Part shown: positions 56,058-63,547 of the stretch, in pieces
Numbering within the stretch: position 1 is the first letter of the stretch
Layout of the letters: every line of letters starts with the position of its first letter
Origin: Acidobacteriota bacterium
GTDB taxonomy: Bacteria; Acidobacteriota; Vicinamibacteria; Vicinamibacterales; UBA823
Assembly (NCBI GenBank): GCA_002730525.1
Contig: PCAK01000036.1
Span: forward strand, 1 to 64,000
Reading direction: 5' to 3'
DNA length: 64,000 bases
Position numbers and translations under genes: made by a program
Notes under the pieces: generated by a model
The model's database searches: none
Seen by the model: only the letters and a program-made list of their open reading frames with translations
What the model was told of the DNA's origin: nothing

Positions 56058-56216
56058 CCCCAGAATCCACTTGTCTTGACGTGCCTGGCTTGTTCTGGAC
56101 GGCGGGGGCGGCGTTGCTCCTCGGTCACTTGGGCCCGCCAAACTCCCTCGTCGCGCCTTGCCCTCGCCGCCCAACCCGGCGTCAGACCCCGTCAGGTCAA
56201 GTGAACTCAGGGGTTA
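56055..56216. mobile_element. MITE-like element with 27-bp terminal inverted repeats between convergent genes
   Basis: The 162-base segment between the sulfatase-linked ORF and the opposing dehydrogenase is bounded by imperfect 27-base inverted arms (56055-56081 and 56190-56216) that match at 22 positions when aligned by hand. Each arm begins with TAACCCC and continues to CACTTG and TGACG. The TAA at the outer ends serves as the stop codon of both converging genes. The interior shows no coding sequence. This looks like a small non-autonomous transposable element or a REP-type repeat; no transposase is nearby. Confidence 0.5.
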
Positions 56217-57137
56217 GCGAGCCGGCGACGACATCTGCTCGAGTGCCAGCATCAGGGCATGCGTGCCGCGCTGGCCGTAGCCCTGCGCCTGGACCGCCAG
56301 GTACAGCTGATGCACGAGCGCCAGACCCGGCAGCGCGAGGCCCATCGCCTTGGCCTCGTCGAGGGCGATGCCCATGTCCTTGATGAAGTGCTCGACGAAG
56401 AAGCCGGGATCGAAATTGCGCTTCAAGATCCGGGGTGCGAGGTTATCGAGCGTCCAGCAGGCGGCGGCGCCGCCGCTGATGGCGCCCAGCATCGTGTCGA
56501 GGTCGAGACCGGCCTTGTGCCCGTACAGCAGGCTCTCGCAGACGCCGATCATCGTGCCGGCGATCACGATCTGGTTGCACATCTTCGCGTGCTGACCGCT
56601 GCCGGGGCCGCCCTGGTAGACGATCTTCTTCCCAAGCGTCTCGAAGAGCGGCATGACTGCATCCACGGCCGTCCGCTCGCCTCCGACCATGATCGACAAC
56701 GCGGCGTTCTTGGCGCCGACGTCTCCGCCCGACACCGGCGCATCGACCGTCGCGACCTTGGCTCGCTCGCCTGCGGCGGCAATCTCGCGCGCCAGGCTTG
56801 GCTGCGTCGTCGTCATGTCGACGAAGATCGTGCCGGCTCTGGCGCGCGTGAAGAGGCCAGCCTCGCCGAGGTAGACATCACGCACGTCGGGCGGAAAGCC
56901 GACGATCGTCACGACGACATCCGATTGCTCGGCCACCTCGCGCGGGGAATCGGCCCAGGCGGCCCCCTCGTCGAGGAGCGGCTGCGCCTTCGATCGGGTG
57001 CGTGAATAGACTGTCACGGGATGGCCCTTGGCGAGCACGTGACCGCACATGGAGAGCCCCATCACGCCGGCGCCCACCCAGCCGATGCGGGTGGATCCGG
57101 TGACGGGCGTCGGAGTGGGTGTTGGCTGATCAGGCAT
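56214..57137 (-). CDS. 3-hydroxyisobutyrate dehydrogenase family NAD(P)-dependent oxidoreductase
   Basis: A 307-residue beta-hydroxyacid dehydrogenase. [20 protein letters not shown] is the NAD(P)-binding motif, and [16 protein letters not shown] and [20 protein letters not shown] are substrate and cofactor segments; the catalytic Lys is in [15 protein letters not shown]. The C-terminal six-helix domain is intact ([20 protein letters not shown]). Candidates are 3-hydroxyisobutyrate, tartronate semialdehyde or glyoxylate/succinic semialdehyde reductases; the [12 protein letters not shown] arginine after strand 2 favours NADP+. It diverges from the hom operon; the intergenic region includes the hom promoter. 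Confidence 0.9.
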
Positions 57138-57187
57138 CGCTACAGGAAACGTGAAGGCCGGAACGATGTCAAGGGTGCACGGGCCGT

Positions 57188-57216
57188 TTGACTTGGTGGG
57201 TGCGACGCGTCAGAAT
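57188..57216 (+). promoter_or_regulatory. Promoter of the hom-thrC-lysC-asd operon
   Basis: TTGACT (57188-57193), a 17-base spacer and CAGAAT (57211-57216). Transcription would start near 57223, about 16 bases before the leader ORF and 220 bases before hom. Confidence 0.6.
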
Positions 57217-57238
57217 AGCCGTTCGGCTGCCTCGGAAG

Positions 57239-57367
57239 ATGGTCCCCCCTGGCAGCATCACCATGACGCAGACCCGCGGCACGACGGCGACACCGAATAT
57301 GATGACGGCGACGTGGATTATCACGCTCGCGACGCCGATGCGTGCGCGACAACGCCGGATGATGTAG
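57239..57367 (+). CDS. Thr/Met-rich leader peptide of the hom operon (thrL-like)
   Basis: A 42-codon ORF ending with TAG at 57365-57367. An inner ATG at 57263 gives a 34-codon version with nine Thr codons and six Met codons (counting the start), mostly ACG and ATG, plus two adjacent Ile codons (ATT-ATC). The Thr codons are spread through the first two thirds. The last codons, CGG ATG ATG, and the stop lie inside the antiterminator arm 57355-57364. A run of Thr and Ile codons ahead of a terminator is the design of thrL in E. coli. The ribosome site is weak (GGAAG directly before 57239). The peptide itself needs no function. Confidence 0.6.
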   Translation: MVPPGSITMTQTRGTTATPNMMTATWIITLATPMRARQRRMM

Positions 57368-57409
57368 CCGACCCAGATAGCGACAGAGGAACCTGAGGCC
57401 ATCATCCGG
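57355..57409 (+). promoter_or_regulatory. Antiterminator pairing of the hom attenuator
   Basis: CCGGATGATG (57355-57364), overlapping the end of the leader ORF, is perfectly complementary to CATCATCCGG (57400-57409), which is the left arm of the terminator. The two structures exclude each other. A ribosome waiting at Thr or Ile codons leaves 57355-57364 free; one at the stop codon covers it. Confidence 0.65.
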
Positions 57410-57430
57410 AAGCGGGTGGTGGCTTTTTTT
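57398..57430 (+). terminator. Intrinsic terminator (attenuator) in front of hom
   Basis: GCCATCATCC (57398-57407), loop GGAAGC, and GGGTGGTGGC (57414-57423) form a 10-bp stem with two G-U pairs, followed directly by seven T residues (57424-57430). It is on the plus strand, 12 bases before the hom start, with no complete plus-strand gene ending at it, so it acts on the leader transcript. Confidence 0.85.
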
Positions 57431-57442
57431 GTGCGGAAAGTG

Positions 57443-58696
57443 ATGACGAGAGAACGCGAGGCGGCCGGCACGCTCGGCGTGGCGCTGGTCGGGTTCGGCA
57501 CGGTGGGCCAGTCAGTGGCACGCATCCTGATCGGCGGGGCGGAGGGCTTGCGGCTGGTCCGTATCTGCAACCGTCACGTCGCGCGGAAACGCGTCGCCTG
57601 GGTGCCGGAGCGGGTGAGCTGGACGGAATCAATCGACGACGTTCTGACCTCCGACGTCGACGTGGTCGTGGAACTCATCGGCGGGACGGATCCGGCGCTC
57701 GAGTGGATGCGGCGTGCGCTCGAGGCCGGCAAGTCGGTGGTCACGGCGAACAAGCAGGCGATTGCACATCACGGGACCGAGTTGTTCAGCCTGGCGCGGC
57801 GGTACGGCGGGCGCCTCGGGTTCGAGGCCTCCGTCGCCGGCGGGATCCCCGTGATTCGCGGGATTCAGGAGGGCCTGGCGGCCGATGAGGTCGTGCGAAT
57901 TCAGGGTATTCTGAACGGCACCTGCAACTTTATTCTTTCAGCGCTGGCCTCGTCTCCTCTTGCGTTCGAGACGGTGCTGGCTGACGCGCAGGCGCACGGA
58001 TTCGCGGAGGCCGATCCGTCGGCCGATCTGGATGGGCTGGACGCGCAGGCCAAGATCGCCATCCTGTCGGCAATCGGGCTCGGGCGCCGGGTGGACCCCT
58101 CGGCGATCGAGTGCCGGTCGATCCGGGGTCTGGAGACTGGCGACTTCGATGCGGCCCGGACCCTCGGCTGCGCCGTTCGGCAGGTGTCGACAGCCGAGCG
58201 TATGGAGCCTGCGGGCGTGCGCGCGGCCGTGGGGCCGGCGCTGGTGAGGCTGGACTCGAGGCTCGCGCAGGTCGAGGGGAGCGAGAACGTTGTGCTGGTG
58301 GACGGCGCGCGGGGCGGTCAGACCGGATTCGTGGGCCACGGTGCGGGCGGCGATTCGACCGCAGTCGCGGTCGTGGCTGACCTGATGGCGATCGCCCGGA
58401 GAGATGGGCATGCGGCAACCGATTGTTTTCCGATCGACGGCGAGCCGCAGGCGGTTCATCCAATGGGCGCGCGGCCGTACTACCTGCGCGTGAGCGGCGG
58501 TACGGCCGCCGCGACCCAACTCGCGGCGTGCGGCGTGTCGGTGGCTCGCAGCCTCGATGTGGCGAACGGATGCGTCCGGCTCGTGACGGCGGCCGTGACG
58601 GGGGCCGAGGTCGAGGCGGCCATCGAGACTCTGGCGGCTGGGTCGACGCGGATCTCGGCCGCCCTACCGATGCTCGACGGGGCGGGAGGAGCATGA
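57443..58696 (+). CDS. hom: Homoserine dehydrogenase
   Basis: A 417-residue NAD(P)-dependent enzyme reducing aspartate semialdehyde to homoserine. The ATG at 57443 follows GGAAAG; GTG 57440 in the same frame is possible. Domains: nucleotide binding (GVALVGFGTVGQSVARILIG, GxGxxG at residues 17-22), then SVVTANKQAIAHHG with the catalytic lysine, and GILNGTCNFILSAL in the dimerisation/substrate domain. The last 65 residues have an ACT-like pattern (ARPYYLRVSGGTAAATQLAA), but the usual DxPGVLA motif is absent and the fold looks shortened. This suggests weak or lost feedback inhibition by threonine. It is the first gene after the attenuator. Confidence 0.95.
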   Translation: MTREREAAGTLGVALVGFGTVGQSVARILIGGAEGLRLVRICNRHVARKRVAWVPERVSWTESIDDVLTSDVDVVVELIGGTDPALEWMRRALEAGKSVVTANKQAIAHHGTELFSLARRYGGRLGFEASVAGGIPVIRGIQEGLAADEVVRIQGILNGTCNFILSALASSPLAFETVLADAQAHGFAEADPSADLDGLDAQAKIAILSAIGLGRRVDPSAIECRSIRGLETGDFDAARTLGCAVRQVSTAERMEPAGVRAAVGPALVRLDSRLAQVEGSENVVLVDGARGGQTGFVGHGAGGDSTAVAVVADLMAIARRDGHAATDCFPIDGEPQAVHPMGARPYYLRVSGGTAAATQLAACGVSVARSLDVANGCVRLVTAAVTGAEVEAAIETLAAGSTRISAALPMLDGAGGA

Positions 58697-59973
58697 TGAG
58701 CTTTTTCAGCGGACTGCAATGTCATCTCTGCGGCACGAAGTTTCCCGGTGAGGCGCTCTTTGTCTGCGACCAGTGCCTCGGCCCGCTCGAGGCGACCTAC
58801 GACTACGACGGCGTGAAGCAGGTCCTGACACGAGAGGCGATTGCCGCTCGACCCGAGAATCTCTGGCGCTACAAGGAACTGTTGCCGGTCGAGGGGGCGC
58901 CCCGGACCGGGCTCAACTCGGGCTTCACGCCGCTGGTCAAGGCCGATCGGCTGGCGCGGGAGGTCGGCCTCGAGCGTCTGTATCTCAAGGACGATTCAGT
59001 CAACCACCCGACGCTGTCGTACAAGGACCGGGTGGTGTCGGTGGCCGCGACGCGGGCCGTCGAGCTGGGGTTCCGGGTCTTCGGGTGCGCGTCCACCGGA
59101 AACCTGGGGAACAGCGTCTCCGCGCACGCTGCGCGGATTGGACTCGAGTGCTACGTCTTTATTCCGAACACGCTCGAGCCCGGCAAGGTCCTGGGCACGG
59201 CGATTGCCGACGCGCATGTTATCGCGATCGACGGCACCTACGATGACGTCAACCGGCTCTGCACGCAGATGGCCGATCGGAACGGCTGGGCCTTCGCGAA
59301 CATCAATTTGCGCAGCTACTACGCCGAAGGCGCCAAGACGCTGGCGTTCGAAGTGGCCGAGCAGCTCGAGTGGAGGCTGCCGCAGCATCTGGTCTCGCCG
59401 GTGGCCGGGGGCACGCTGCTGCCGCGGGTCGGCCGCGGATTCCGGGAACTGCGAGAGATCGGCCTGGTCGACGACGAGATGCCGAAGATTCACGCGGCGC
59501 AGGCGGCCGGCTGCGCACCCGTCGTCCGCGCGCTGAACGAGGGCTTGGAGTTCCCCGAACCGGTGAAGCCCGACACGATTGCGAAATCGATCGCGATCGG
59601 GAATCCGGCCGACGGGTTCCAGGTGCTGGAGACGGTCCGCGGGACGGGCGGCGCGGGCGCCATGGTGAGCGACGAACAGATCGTCGAGGCGATCAAGCTG
59701 TTGGCCCGCACGGAGGGGATCTTCACCGAACCGGCCGGCGGAACGACGCTGGCAGCGACGCTCGCGCTGGTCGAGGACGGTGTCATTCCTCGGGACGAGT
59801 CCGTGGTGGTGGCGATCACCGGCAACGGGTACAAGACGGCCGATGTGGTCTCGGATCGCCTGACGACACCGGTCCAGCTCGGCCGTTCGTTGAAGGAATT
59901 CGAGGCCTACCTCGCGTCGCGACCGACCGAGGCCGCGCGCCAGGTTCCAGTGAAGCGTGGCGCGGGACTGTAG
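58693..59973 (+). CDS. thrC: Threonine synthase
   Basis: A 426-residue PLP enzyme converting O-phosphohomoserine to threonine. It starts at an ATG overlapping the hom stop, with GGGAGGAG upstream. The N-terminus has a zinc-ribbon-like pattern, QCHLCGTKFPGEALFVCDQC, as in threonine synthases of the archaeal/plant type. The PLP lysine is in SVNHPTLSYKDRVVSVAATR; GCASTGNLGNSVSAHAAR is the cofactor-binding Ser/Gly segment. SPVAGGTLLPRVGRGF holds the phosphate-binding glycines. It completes the threonine branch together with Hom; homoserine kinase (thrB) is not in the window. Confidence 0.95.
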   Translation: MMSFFSGLQCHLCGTKFPGEALFVCDQCLGPLEATYDYDGVKQVLTREAIAARPENLWRYKELLPVEGAPRTGLNSGFTPLVKADRLAREVGLERLYLKDDSVNHPTLSYKDRVVSVAATRAVELGFRVFGCASTGNLGNSVSAHAARIGLECYVFIPNTLEPGKVLGTAIADAHVIAIDGTYDDVNRLCTQMADRNGWAFANINLRSYYAEGAKTLAFEVAEQLEWRLPQHLVSPVAGGTLLPRVGRGFRELREIGLVDDEMPKIHAAQAAGCAPVVRALNEGLEFPEPVKPDTIAKSIAIGNPADGFQVLETVRGTGGAGAMVSDEQIVEAIKLLARTEGIFTEPAGGTTLAATLALVEDGVIPRDESVVVAITGNGYKTADVVSDRLTTPVQLGRSLKEFEAYLASRPTEAARQVPVKRGAGL

Positions 59974-59988
59974 TCCTGCGATGTGGCT

Positions 59989-61238
<1,250 letters not shown>

Positions 61239-61242
<4 letters not shown>

Positions 61243-62501
61243 GGAAGACGCCAGGCCTCGTCGTCCAGAAGTACGGCGGCACGTCGATCGGCAGCTCCGC
61301 GAGGGTGATCGCGGTCGCCGATCGGATCAAACGTAGCCTGCAGACCGTCGATCGGCTGGTGGTCGTGGTCTCGGCGATGGGCAGCACGACCGACGATCTG
61401 GTCGCCCTGGCGCACAAGGTGTCGCGCGAGCCCCGGGGCCGCGAGATGGACCTGTTGCTGGCCTCGGGTGAGCAGATTGCGGTGTCCACGCTCGGCCTGG
61501 CGCTGCAGGATCGCGGGGTGCCGGCCGTCTCGCTGACGGCAGCGCAGTGCGGCATACGTACTGACGGCGTGTTCAACCTGGCTCGTATCCAGTCGATCGA
61601 TACGCGGCGGATTCAAGGCGAGCTGGATGGCGGGCGGGTCGTCATCATTACGGGCTTTCAGGGAATCACGGACAGCCACGAGATCACGACCCTGGGTAGG
61701 GGCGGCAGCGACGTGACCGGCGCGGCCGTGGCGGCGGCGCTCGGAGCCGAGGCGTGCGACATTTGCACCGACGTCGACGGCGTCCTCTCGGCCGACCCCC
61801 GCCTGGTGCCAGACGCGCGGCGCTGGGCCGAAATGTCCTACGAGGAGGCGATCGAGCTGGCGTCGAGTGGCGCGAAGGTGCTGCATCCGCGCGCGGCGGA
61901 GATCTGCATGTCGTACGGGGTTCCGATTCATGTGCGCTCCAGCTTCACCGACGAGGCGGGGACGTGGATCCGAGCAGGGGAGTCGATCATGGAGCAGGCG
62001 GAAGTTGTTGGCGTCACGAGCGACAAGAAAGTCGCCAAGGTCACGCTGCTGAACGTCGCCGACCGGCCGGGCATTGCGGCGGAGGTCTTCGAGGAGCTGG
62101 CGGACCGGAACATCAGCATCCGGCTGATCATCCAGAGCGCCAGTTCGGAGAGCCGTGCCCGGATCACGTTCATCCTCGACGAAGAGTTCGTGGACGGCGC
62201 GCTCGAGGCGCTTGACCGCTGGAAGGCGGAGCAATTGGCGAGTGACGTCCTCGTGGATCGCGACGTCGCCAAGATCTCGATCGTCGGCTCGGGGCTGGGC
62301 TCGACCCCGGGCCTGGCGGCGCGGATGTTCAAGGCGCTGGCGCGCGAGGGGATCAACATCGATTGCATCAGCTCGTCGGAGATGAAGGTGGCGTGCGTCA
62401 TCGCGTCGCGCCACCTCGAGCGGGCGGTGAAGGTGGTGCACGAGGAGTTCTTCAAGGCCCAGCCGCAGCCGGTGGCGGGGGTAGCGAGTACGGGCGCATG
62501 A
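61239..62501 (+). CDS. lysC: Aspartate kinase
   Basis: A 420-residue kinase phosphorylating aspartate, the first step to lysine, threonine and methionine. The ATG at 61239 overlaps the preceding stop. [20 protein letters not shown] is the amino-acid kinase opening, [20 protein letters not shown] the ATP/substrate region, and [13 protein letters not shown] the catalytic Asp segment. Two ACT domains follow: [20 protein letters not shown] and [20 protein letters not shown], which normally bind lysine or threonine as feedback inhibitors. An overlap of four bases with asd couples the two genes. Confidence 0.97.
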
Positions 62502-63547
62502 CGAAGCAGATTGAGGTTGGGGTTCTCGGCGCGACCGGCATGGTCGGCCAGCAGTTCGTTCGGGAACTGGAGGGCCATCCGTGGTTCAGGCTCACCTGGC
62601 TCGGCGCGAGTGAGCGCTCCGCGGGCAAGCGCTATGACGCCGCGGCGCCCTGGCGACTGCCGGGAGCGATCCCCGACGACATCGGCCGGCGCACGGTCGA
62701 GGCGTCGACGCCGGAGGGCGCGCCCCAGCTCGTCTTCTCGGGGCTCGACGCCGCAGTGGCTGGGGAGGTCGAGGGCGCGTTCGCCGAGTCGGGGCACACC
62801 ATCGTCAGCAACGCCAGGAACTTCAGAATGGACGACCTGGTGCCGCTCCTCGTGCCGGAGATCAACGCGGACCACCTCGGCCTGCTCCCGGCGCAACGGC
62901 AGGCGAAGGGGTGGCGGGGCGGCATCGTGACGAACCCGAACTGCTCGACGGTCGTCCTGACGATGGGCCTGGCGCCGCTTGTCGAGTTCGGCCTGCGTTC
63001 GGTCATCGTGACCACGGCGCAGGCTGTGTCGGGGGCCGGGTACCCCGGCGTGGCGTCGCTCGACATCATCGGCAACGTCGTGCCCGAGGTGCCCGGTGAA
63101 GAGGTGAAGATGGAGACCGAGACCAAGAAGATCCTCGGGCTCCTCCGGGACGGACGTGTGGAGCCGCACGGTCTGACCATCAGTGCGGCGACCACACGGG
63201 TCCCGGTGATCAACGGACACACCGAGATGATCTCGGTCAAGTTCGACGATGCGCCGCCCGAGGCCGATCTCCTGGCGGCCTTCGCCCGGTTCGGCGGCCG
63301 GCCGCAGGAGGCGAAGCTGCCGAGCGCGCCGTCCCGTCCGGTCGTTTATCTCGACGCTCCGTTGCGGCCGCAGCCGCGGCTCGACGCCGACCGGGACGGC
63401 GGGATGACGGTGAGCGTCGGCCGGTTGCGACCGTGCGGTGTGCTGGACTACAAGTTCGTGGCGCTGGGGCACAATACGGTCCGGGGTGCGGCCGGTGCGG
63501 CTGTCCTCAACGCCGAACTGATGCACGCGGATGGATTCCTCGACTGA
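62498..63547 (+). CDS. asd: Aspartate-semialdehyde dehydrogenase
   Basis: A 349-residue enzyme of the archaeal/fungal-type subgroup, reducing aspartyl phosphate to aspartate semialdehyde. [20 protein letters not shown] is the NADPH fold. The catalytic cysteine lies in [40 protein letters not shown] and [20 protein letters not shown], with the catalytic His, follow. It gives the substrate for Hom and closes the pathway within the operon: LysC, Asd, Hom and ThrC all appear, only homoserine kinase missing. Confidence 0.96.

Follow-up and report, generated by a model that had tools for sequence, protein, structure and literature searches.

The 64,000-nucleotide window analysed here belongs to contig G000:C36, in a genome of 3.31 Mb that is 99% complete. 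The short region separating hom from a divergent dehydrogenase gene (56214-57137, minus strand) raises the question of whether translation of a leader peptide governs transcription of the hom-thrC-X-lysC-asd operon behind it. Ribosome-mediated attenuation is a textbook class of control, and in E. coli thrL a Thr-rich leader peptide, an intrinsic terminator and a competing antiterminator precede the threonine-pathway genes. A sequence-only reading had proposed the same logic for this locus. The anatomy of the element, its conservation, its covariation, the matching of its leader codons to downstream genes and a spacing rule were all observed in the sequence, and they make it highly probable that the element is a ribosome-mediated transcription attenuator controlling hom-thrC-X-lysC-asd.

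Anatomy of the leader region

The operon lies on the plus strand and comprises hom (homoserine dehydrogenase, the first regulated gene; 57443-58696; NCBIfam PRK06349.1 above cut-off), thrC (threonine synthase; 58693-59973; NCBIfam TIGR00260 and PRK08197.1), gene X of the TIGR00300 family (NPN-dependent ornithine cyclodeaminase-like; 59983-61242; 518.6 bits against a cut-off of 410.8), lysC (aspartate kinase; 61236-62501; NCBIfam PRK06635 series and TIGR00657) and asd (aspartate-semialdehyde dehydrogenase; 62498-63547; NCBIfam TIGR00978). An alternative GTG start for hom at 57416, within the terminator, is unlikely. Upstream, the putative promoter TTGACT-17-CAGAAT was present where it had been reported (57188-57216, plus strand; 9/12 in a consensus scan) and was the sole sigma-70-like site in 1.5 kb. 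The stretch TTTGACTT and its 17-nt spacing to the AAT box were conserved 5' of hom in three related genomes (G001, G002, G004), and TTTGACT also occurred upstream of ilvD.

The leader ORF (57263-57367, plus strand; 34 sense codons, stop TAG at 57365-57367) encodes MTQTRGTTATPNMMTATWIITLATPMRARQRRMM. The counts reported earlier for its 34 sense codons were reproduced, with nine Thr codons (57266-57332), six Met codons and two adjacent Ile codons at 57317 and 57320. Of the two starts that had been suggested, 57263 is the likely one because this ATG is retained in a genome of the same genus (G001), where the upstream ATG at 57239 reads ACG; the Shine-Dalgarno sequence 5' of 57263 was weak by eye. 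Leader start, frame and C-terminal third were retained in the same genome, whose hom leader reads MTQTRGTTATMMTPTVVMSITTTATPMRARHCRMM. The Thr count alone is weak evidence, since 7 of 950 such frames within the window reached at least nine Thr in the 34 codons before the stop. Stalling at rare codons gained no firm support: the Thr codons of hom leaders followed ordinary usage (ACG/ACC), and in ilvD leaders GTT and ATT were somewhat commoner than in the window's genes.

Three strands follow from the end of the leader onwards, all on the plus strand. Strand 2, the 5' arm of the antiterminator (57355-57370), consists of CCGGATGATG (57355-57364), the stop TAG and GCC (57368-57370). Its exact 10-base complement, CATCATCCGG, was found at 57400-57409 as claimed; the overlap claimed between CCGGATGATG and the stop codon was not, since the motif ends just 5' of TAG, and folding extended the 2:3 pairing beyond the stop codon through GCC. 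Strand 3 (57395-57409) is common to antiterminator and terminator according to folds and covariation. Strand 4 and the U-run occupy 57413-57430, placing an intrinsic terminator between the leader ORF and hom: a terminator scan returned a hairpin at 57395-57426 followed by seven T at 57424-57430. The hairpin, the seven T and the shared strand were thus as first described, while the stem folded as 14 bp rather than the 10 bp proposed (-22.6 kcal/mol, z = -5.8 against shuffles).

Folding with strand 2 free or sequestered gave the two predicted outcomes. In a transcript ending at 57412, a stall at each Thr or Ile codon left 12-13 strand 2:3 pairs, so that stalls at Thr codons yielded the antiterminator until strand 4 was made, and with the ribosome placed at the stop the remaining RNA folded only as the terminator. 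Once strand 4 was present, the terminator was always more stable than the antiterminator in thermodynamic folds; kinetic trapping would therefore be needed, as it is in other attenuators. The search for a protector (1:2) helix returned a weak signal (mean z = -0.26 over 115 loci; z = -0.57 in the window), and a conserved protector helix found no convincing support.

Covariation, suggested earlier as a check on both stems, was detected in the antiterminator. Across 127 sequences, the two pairs immediately flanking the constant core covaried (paired in 75.6% versus 57.5% and 62.2% versus 43.4% in shuffled alignments, 0 of 1000 shuffles each, a significance inflated by the relatedness of the sequences), and these outer pairs were of C-G, G-C and U-A types. 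Inside the core, one A-U pair was swapped for G-C in 16 sequences. Since most of the outer pairs have their 3' partner within the terminator loop, this covariation is not explained by terminator pairing.

A probable attenuator family across the order

When the region was compared with its own genome by BLAST, a 74% identical stretch was found 5' of ilvD, where the leader ends in VRVVVITKTGTVVPDAANGMM. The strict pattern GATGATGTAG-N5-35-CCATCATC matched exactly two sites in the 3.3-Mb genome, one 5' of hom and the other 5' of ilvD, and reversed-pattern controls gave zero matches; the paired core is not due to chance. Leader, core and U-run were retained 5' of hom in three genomes of the same family (G002, G003, G004), whose leaders were Thr-rich; in every same-family hom upstream region read (G001 to G004), leader ORF, complementary arm and T-run were all kept.

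Across the order, 162 genomes were searched by pattern scan and with a covariance model (R1) built from 32 members. The model matched 89 of the 162 genomes at E 0.01, leaving about half of the order's genomes with no R1 match. Extending the search to the whole class gave matches in 90 of 193 genomes at E 0.001, a single weak one lying beyond the order. When the phylum was sampled evenly, matches came from five genomes that do not belong to the class, including loci before ilvD (L293), ilvB (L296) and a pair of ilvH-ilvB operons (L295, L298), their leaders being rich in Val/Leu/Ile. Among 80 loci of the nearest named Hom relatives, mostly Acidobacteriota MAGs, none had the core directly upstream of hom, the best match (20.5 bits, L103) not adjoining it. 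It is through these Hom relatives, and so indirectly, that the lineage is assigned to Acidobacteriota.

The family, which comprises over 100 loci, has the core GGATGATG ... GGCCATCATCC-loop-GGRTGRTGGCC-U-run. In the window this core spans 57349-57437 on the plus strand (68.4 bits, E = 6.1e-13, the window being in the training set), with the leader stop TAG directly after GGATGATG, as in the family definition. On these sequence criteria, the element is a member of an order-wide attenuator family and not a one-off, a wider membership that the sequence-only reading had missed. In total, 116 loci were read, 80 of them recovered by the model search and outside the training alignment; three weak matches (L297, L299, L300) and two U-run-poor ones (L301, L302) were left out of the firm count. 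U-runs were conserved in most members. Across operons and families the core varied much less than base pairing by itself would permit, with spacers diverging freely. In the training alignment this invariance is partly by construction, the core having been chosen there by pattern; matches recovered by the model varied more in the core (GGGTGATG, GGATGACG, GGATGAGG). The leader stop shifts between TGA (GGA-TGA) and TAG (ATG-ATG-TAG) frames, as seen between ilvD loci of f9 (L083 and others) and of f1 (L101 and others), so one RNA core serves two reading frames. Recent copying of a cassette between operons was not supported, hom and ilvD spacers being barely more alike within than between genomes (0.006 versus -0.026, 173 of 5000 permutations).

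Leader codons, spacing and the proposed mechanism

Downstream genes were named after their top BLAST match among references taken from the set, themselves named by eye or by family search. On this basis, the 116 loci preceded hom (37), ilvD (31), pheA (11, mostly followed by ilvD or ilvB), aspartokinase (5), ilvB (4), ileS (2), LysR regulators (5) and MFS transporters (2), with 16 unclassified and single cases before ilvA, a TIGR00300 gene and a cysG-cobA-cysI operon. The TIGR00300 gene (L289, in G083), a relative of the operon's gene X, stands alone directly 3' of the attenuator, and its leader is without a clear cognate residue.

Leader codons changed with the operon: Thr and Met for hom, Thr for aspartokinase (leader ending in RPTMTRTTTITTGDSSGG), Val for ilvD (ending in FRPLVVVVRSVGVVITPAASG) and pheA-ilvD, Ile for ilvB and ileS (the Ile-rich ileS leader ending in GIITPIGIPIGIIGAGIRVGRGRVM) and Cys for the cysG-cobA-cysI operon of G001 (a Cys-rich leader ending in AAAICPICSCCCTTMMPGTSG). 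Because a first version of the codon test had selected the reading frame by content, it was repeated with one leader per genus and identical residues scored in all groups. At least three Thr were present in 15 of 19 hom and lysC leaders compared to 1 of 24 ilvD and pheA leaders (p = 3.5e-7), and at least three Val in 24 of 24 ilvD and pheA leaders compared to 3 of 19 hom and lysC leaders (p = 3.7e-9). Met accounted for 13.1% of upstream codons in hom leaders, 3.0% in ilvD and 0.5% in pheA leaders. Among the 19 codons of three hom leaders in genus g15 (L258, L287, L288), Met took 6-7 places and Thr 0-1 (e.g. LHMSMPMSMRMRTVSAMSM), which suggests a methionine-sensing attenuator in this genus; two further hom leaders (L236, L237) had few Thr or Met. 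The routes to Thr and Met part at homoserine, so sensing of both would be sensible. The earlier proposal that charged tRNA(Thr), and possibly tRNA(Met) or tRNA(Ile), is sensed thus gains support for Thr, conserved in the hom leaders of relatives, and for Met, with Ile less well supported. Outside the firm count, the two U-run-poor loci (L301 in G011, L302 in G023) matched the model weakly; their leaders were Cys-rich (e.g. MRILTCTCPRRCVACCCRQDFVCG), the genes that follow are cysteine-synthase-like, and the hairpin had no proper U-run.

The position of the cognate codons was measured as distance from strand 2, with the reading frame picked by content. No cognate codons occurred 1 to 16 nt upstream of strand 2 in the 16 TAG-frame leaders, and they were scarce (0-19%) within 15 nt in the 59 TGA-frame leaders; they then reached 56% at 19 nt and 49% at 18 nt, in that order of frames, with a sharp onset in both. 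As the stop codons of the two frames differ by 5 nt and the onset is alike, the spacing follows strand 2 and not the end of the peptide. An onset at 18-19 nt is what the footprint of a stalled ribosome would predict.

From these observations we infer how the promoter is used, where transcription terminates, where the ribosome stalls and in which direction the operon responds. RNA polymerase would start near 57223, and a ribosome would translate the Thr/Met-rich leader. With ample charged tRNA, it would reach the TAG at 57365 and cover strand 2 (57355-57370), strand 3 would pair with strand 4, and transcription would stop at the terminator near 57430. A shortage of charged tRNA(Thr), and probably of charged tRNA(Met), would make the ribosome stall at least 11 codons upstream; strand 2, left free, would capture strand 3 ahead of the synthesis of strand 4, allowing read-through into hom-thrC-X-lysC-asd. 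Within the family, strands 2, 3 and 4 would form a nearly constant core, and leader codons alone would set the amino acid sensed.

Alternative readings and known systems

An ordinary intrinsic terminator with a fortuitous ORF upstream, strand 2 having no regulatory role, would account for a hairpin that is strong by itself and for a Thr count that is not very rare among the window's frames. It is nevertheless very improbable, as it leaves unexplained the strand 2:3 covariation, the codon matching across operons, the spacing rule and the repetition of the element 5' of amino-acid genes; moreover, the adjoining gene upstream runs divergently and so provides no same-strand transcript to end. The leader might instead act mainly on translation, by reinitiation or exposure of the hom start, and not on termination. 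Leader genes close to structural genes are known in Acidobacteria (survey PMC4833913), and only 17 nt separate the end of the terminator hairpin from the hom ATG; yet the 76 nt between the leader stop and the hom start hold a terminator and a U-run, and the conservation of U-runs in most members leaves this reading very little probability. That a protein or other ligand recognises the constant core, the leader ORF being secondary, would suit a core whose constancy exceeds the needs of pairing while spacers diverge. However, no Rfam family matched the attenuator, pathway-linked change is confined to the codon content of the ORF, the spacing rule fits ribosome-footprint terms, and a constant core alone cannot tell Thr, Val, Ile, Leu and Cys operons apart, all of which makes ligand recognition extremely unlikely.

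Ribosome-mediated attenuation remains the preferred reading, and its stall and antiterminator logic agrees with that of E. coli thrL, as first proposed, in view of the covariation, the codon changes and the spacing rule; both elements have a Thr-rich leader, a terminator and a competing antiterminator. The likeness does not extend to detail. Here the second enriched residue is Met and not Ile, strand 2 directly adjoins the leader stop, a conserved protector helix is not supported, and the core is common to ilvD, ileS and other operons. The Rfam Thr_leader model (RF00506) gave no match in the window at the gathering score, nor in 57100-57500 at E up to 10, and the T-box covariance model matched neither the window nor 57100-57500.

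In Corynebacterium, the ilvBNC attenuator combines a leader peptide with branched-chain codons (MTIIRLVVVTARRLP) and overlapping antiterminator and terminator (PMC11857589, PMC11109978); the ilvB uORF motif is confined to Corynebacterium ilvB and has an extra anti-antiterminator hairpin, and no core common to other operons is described there. Leader peptides of trp, leuS and ilvB are known in Actinobacteria, where trp antiterminators and terminators share conserved triple segments gGCC-rGCy-GGCC and no conserved element was reported for threonine operons (Seliverstov et al. 2005, PMC1262725). Those segments recur across orthologous trp operons, whereas here one core serves the operons of several amino acids. 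The cysS uORF motif uORFC-8-2 of Rhodobacterales, a candidate for ribosome-mediated attenuation with tandem Cys codons (PMC8632094), belongs to another lineage, a single gene and a different RNA.

A genome-scale search for premature terminators included Acidobacteria, whose predicted attenuators had almost no associated function (Naville and Gautheret 2010, PMC2965389), and the leader-gene survey mentions Acidobacteria only for reinitiation distances (PMC4833913). The phylum goes unmentioned in the main texts of two large RNA-motif surveys (PMC8632094, PMC11109978), and no description of such leaders in Acidobacteriota was found among the open-access papers searched. What is new is one nearly constant core across many operons, with a strand 2 that abuts or contains the leader stop and no supported protector; the logic was already known.

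Through this family, a large and poorly cultured phylum, whose predicted attenuators had been assigned almost no function (PMC2965389), would join those with ribosome-mediated attenuation. More than 100 leaders have a core in common and differ in the amino acid sensed; the family thus amounts to a natural codon-swap experiment, and it yields an estimate, from sequence data only, of the nearest approach of a stalled ribosome to an antiterminator strand (18-19 nt). Small unannotated leader ORFs could also predict the amino acid that regulates an operon. A broader and tentative interpretation, which we consider possible though rather doubtful, is that of a general-purpose, phylum-specific attenuator platform serving as one of the main kinds of amino-acid regulation there, its core held constant beyond base pairing and retuned to Thr, Met, Val, Ile, Leu or Cys by leader codons alone. 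It would include the methionine-sensing leaders and might involve extra selection on the core, e.g. for a polymerase pause, a terminator signal or contact with a trans-acting factor.

Small proteins with a low-complexity N-terminal part and a conserved C-terminus GYG[HY]G[VI] were encoded just 3' of the attenuator at several loci (L213, L214, L215, L225, L230, L237, L239, L244, L257, L260, L268, L271, L285, L065, L066, L072, L074). Third codon positions varied in their genes, and none of the four proteins tested had a Pfam match. Many of these loci had Leu-rich leaders, and some of the small genes sat between the attenuator and hom. The tail GYGHGV also ended LeuA-like (2-isopropylmalate synthase) ORFs, identified by eye, in other genomes of the order (L313-L322).
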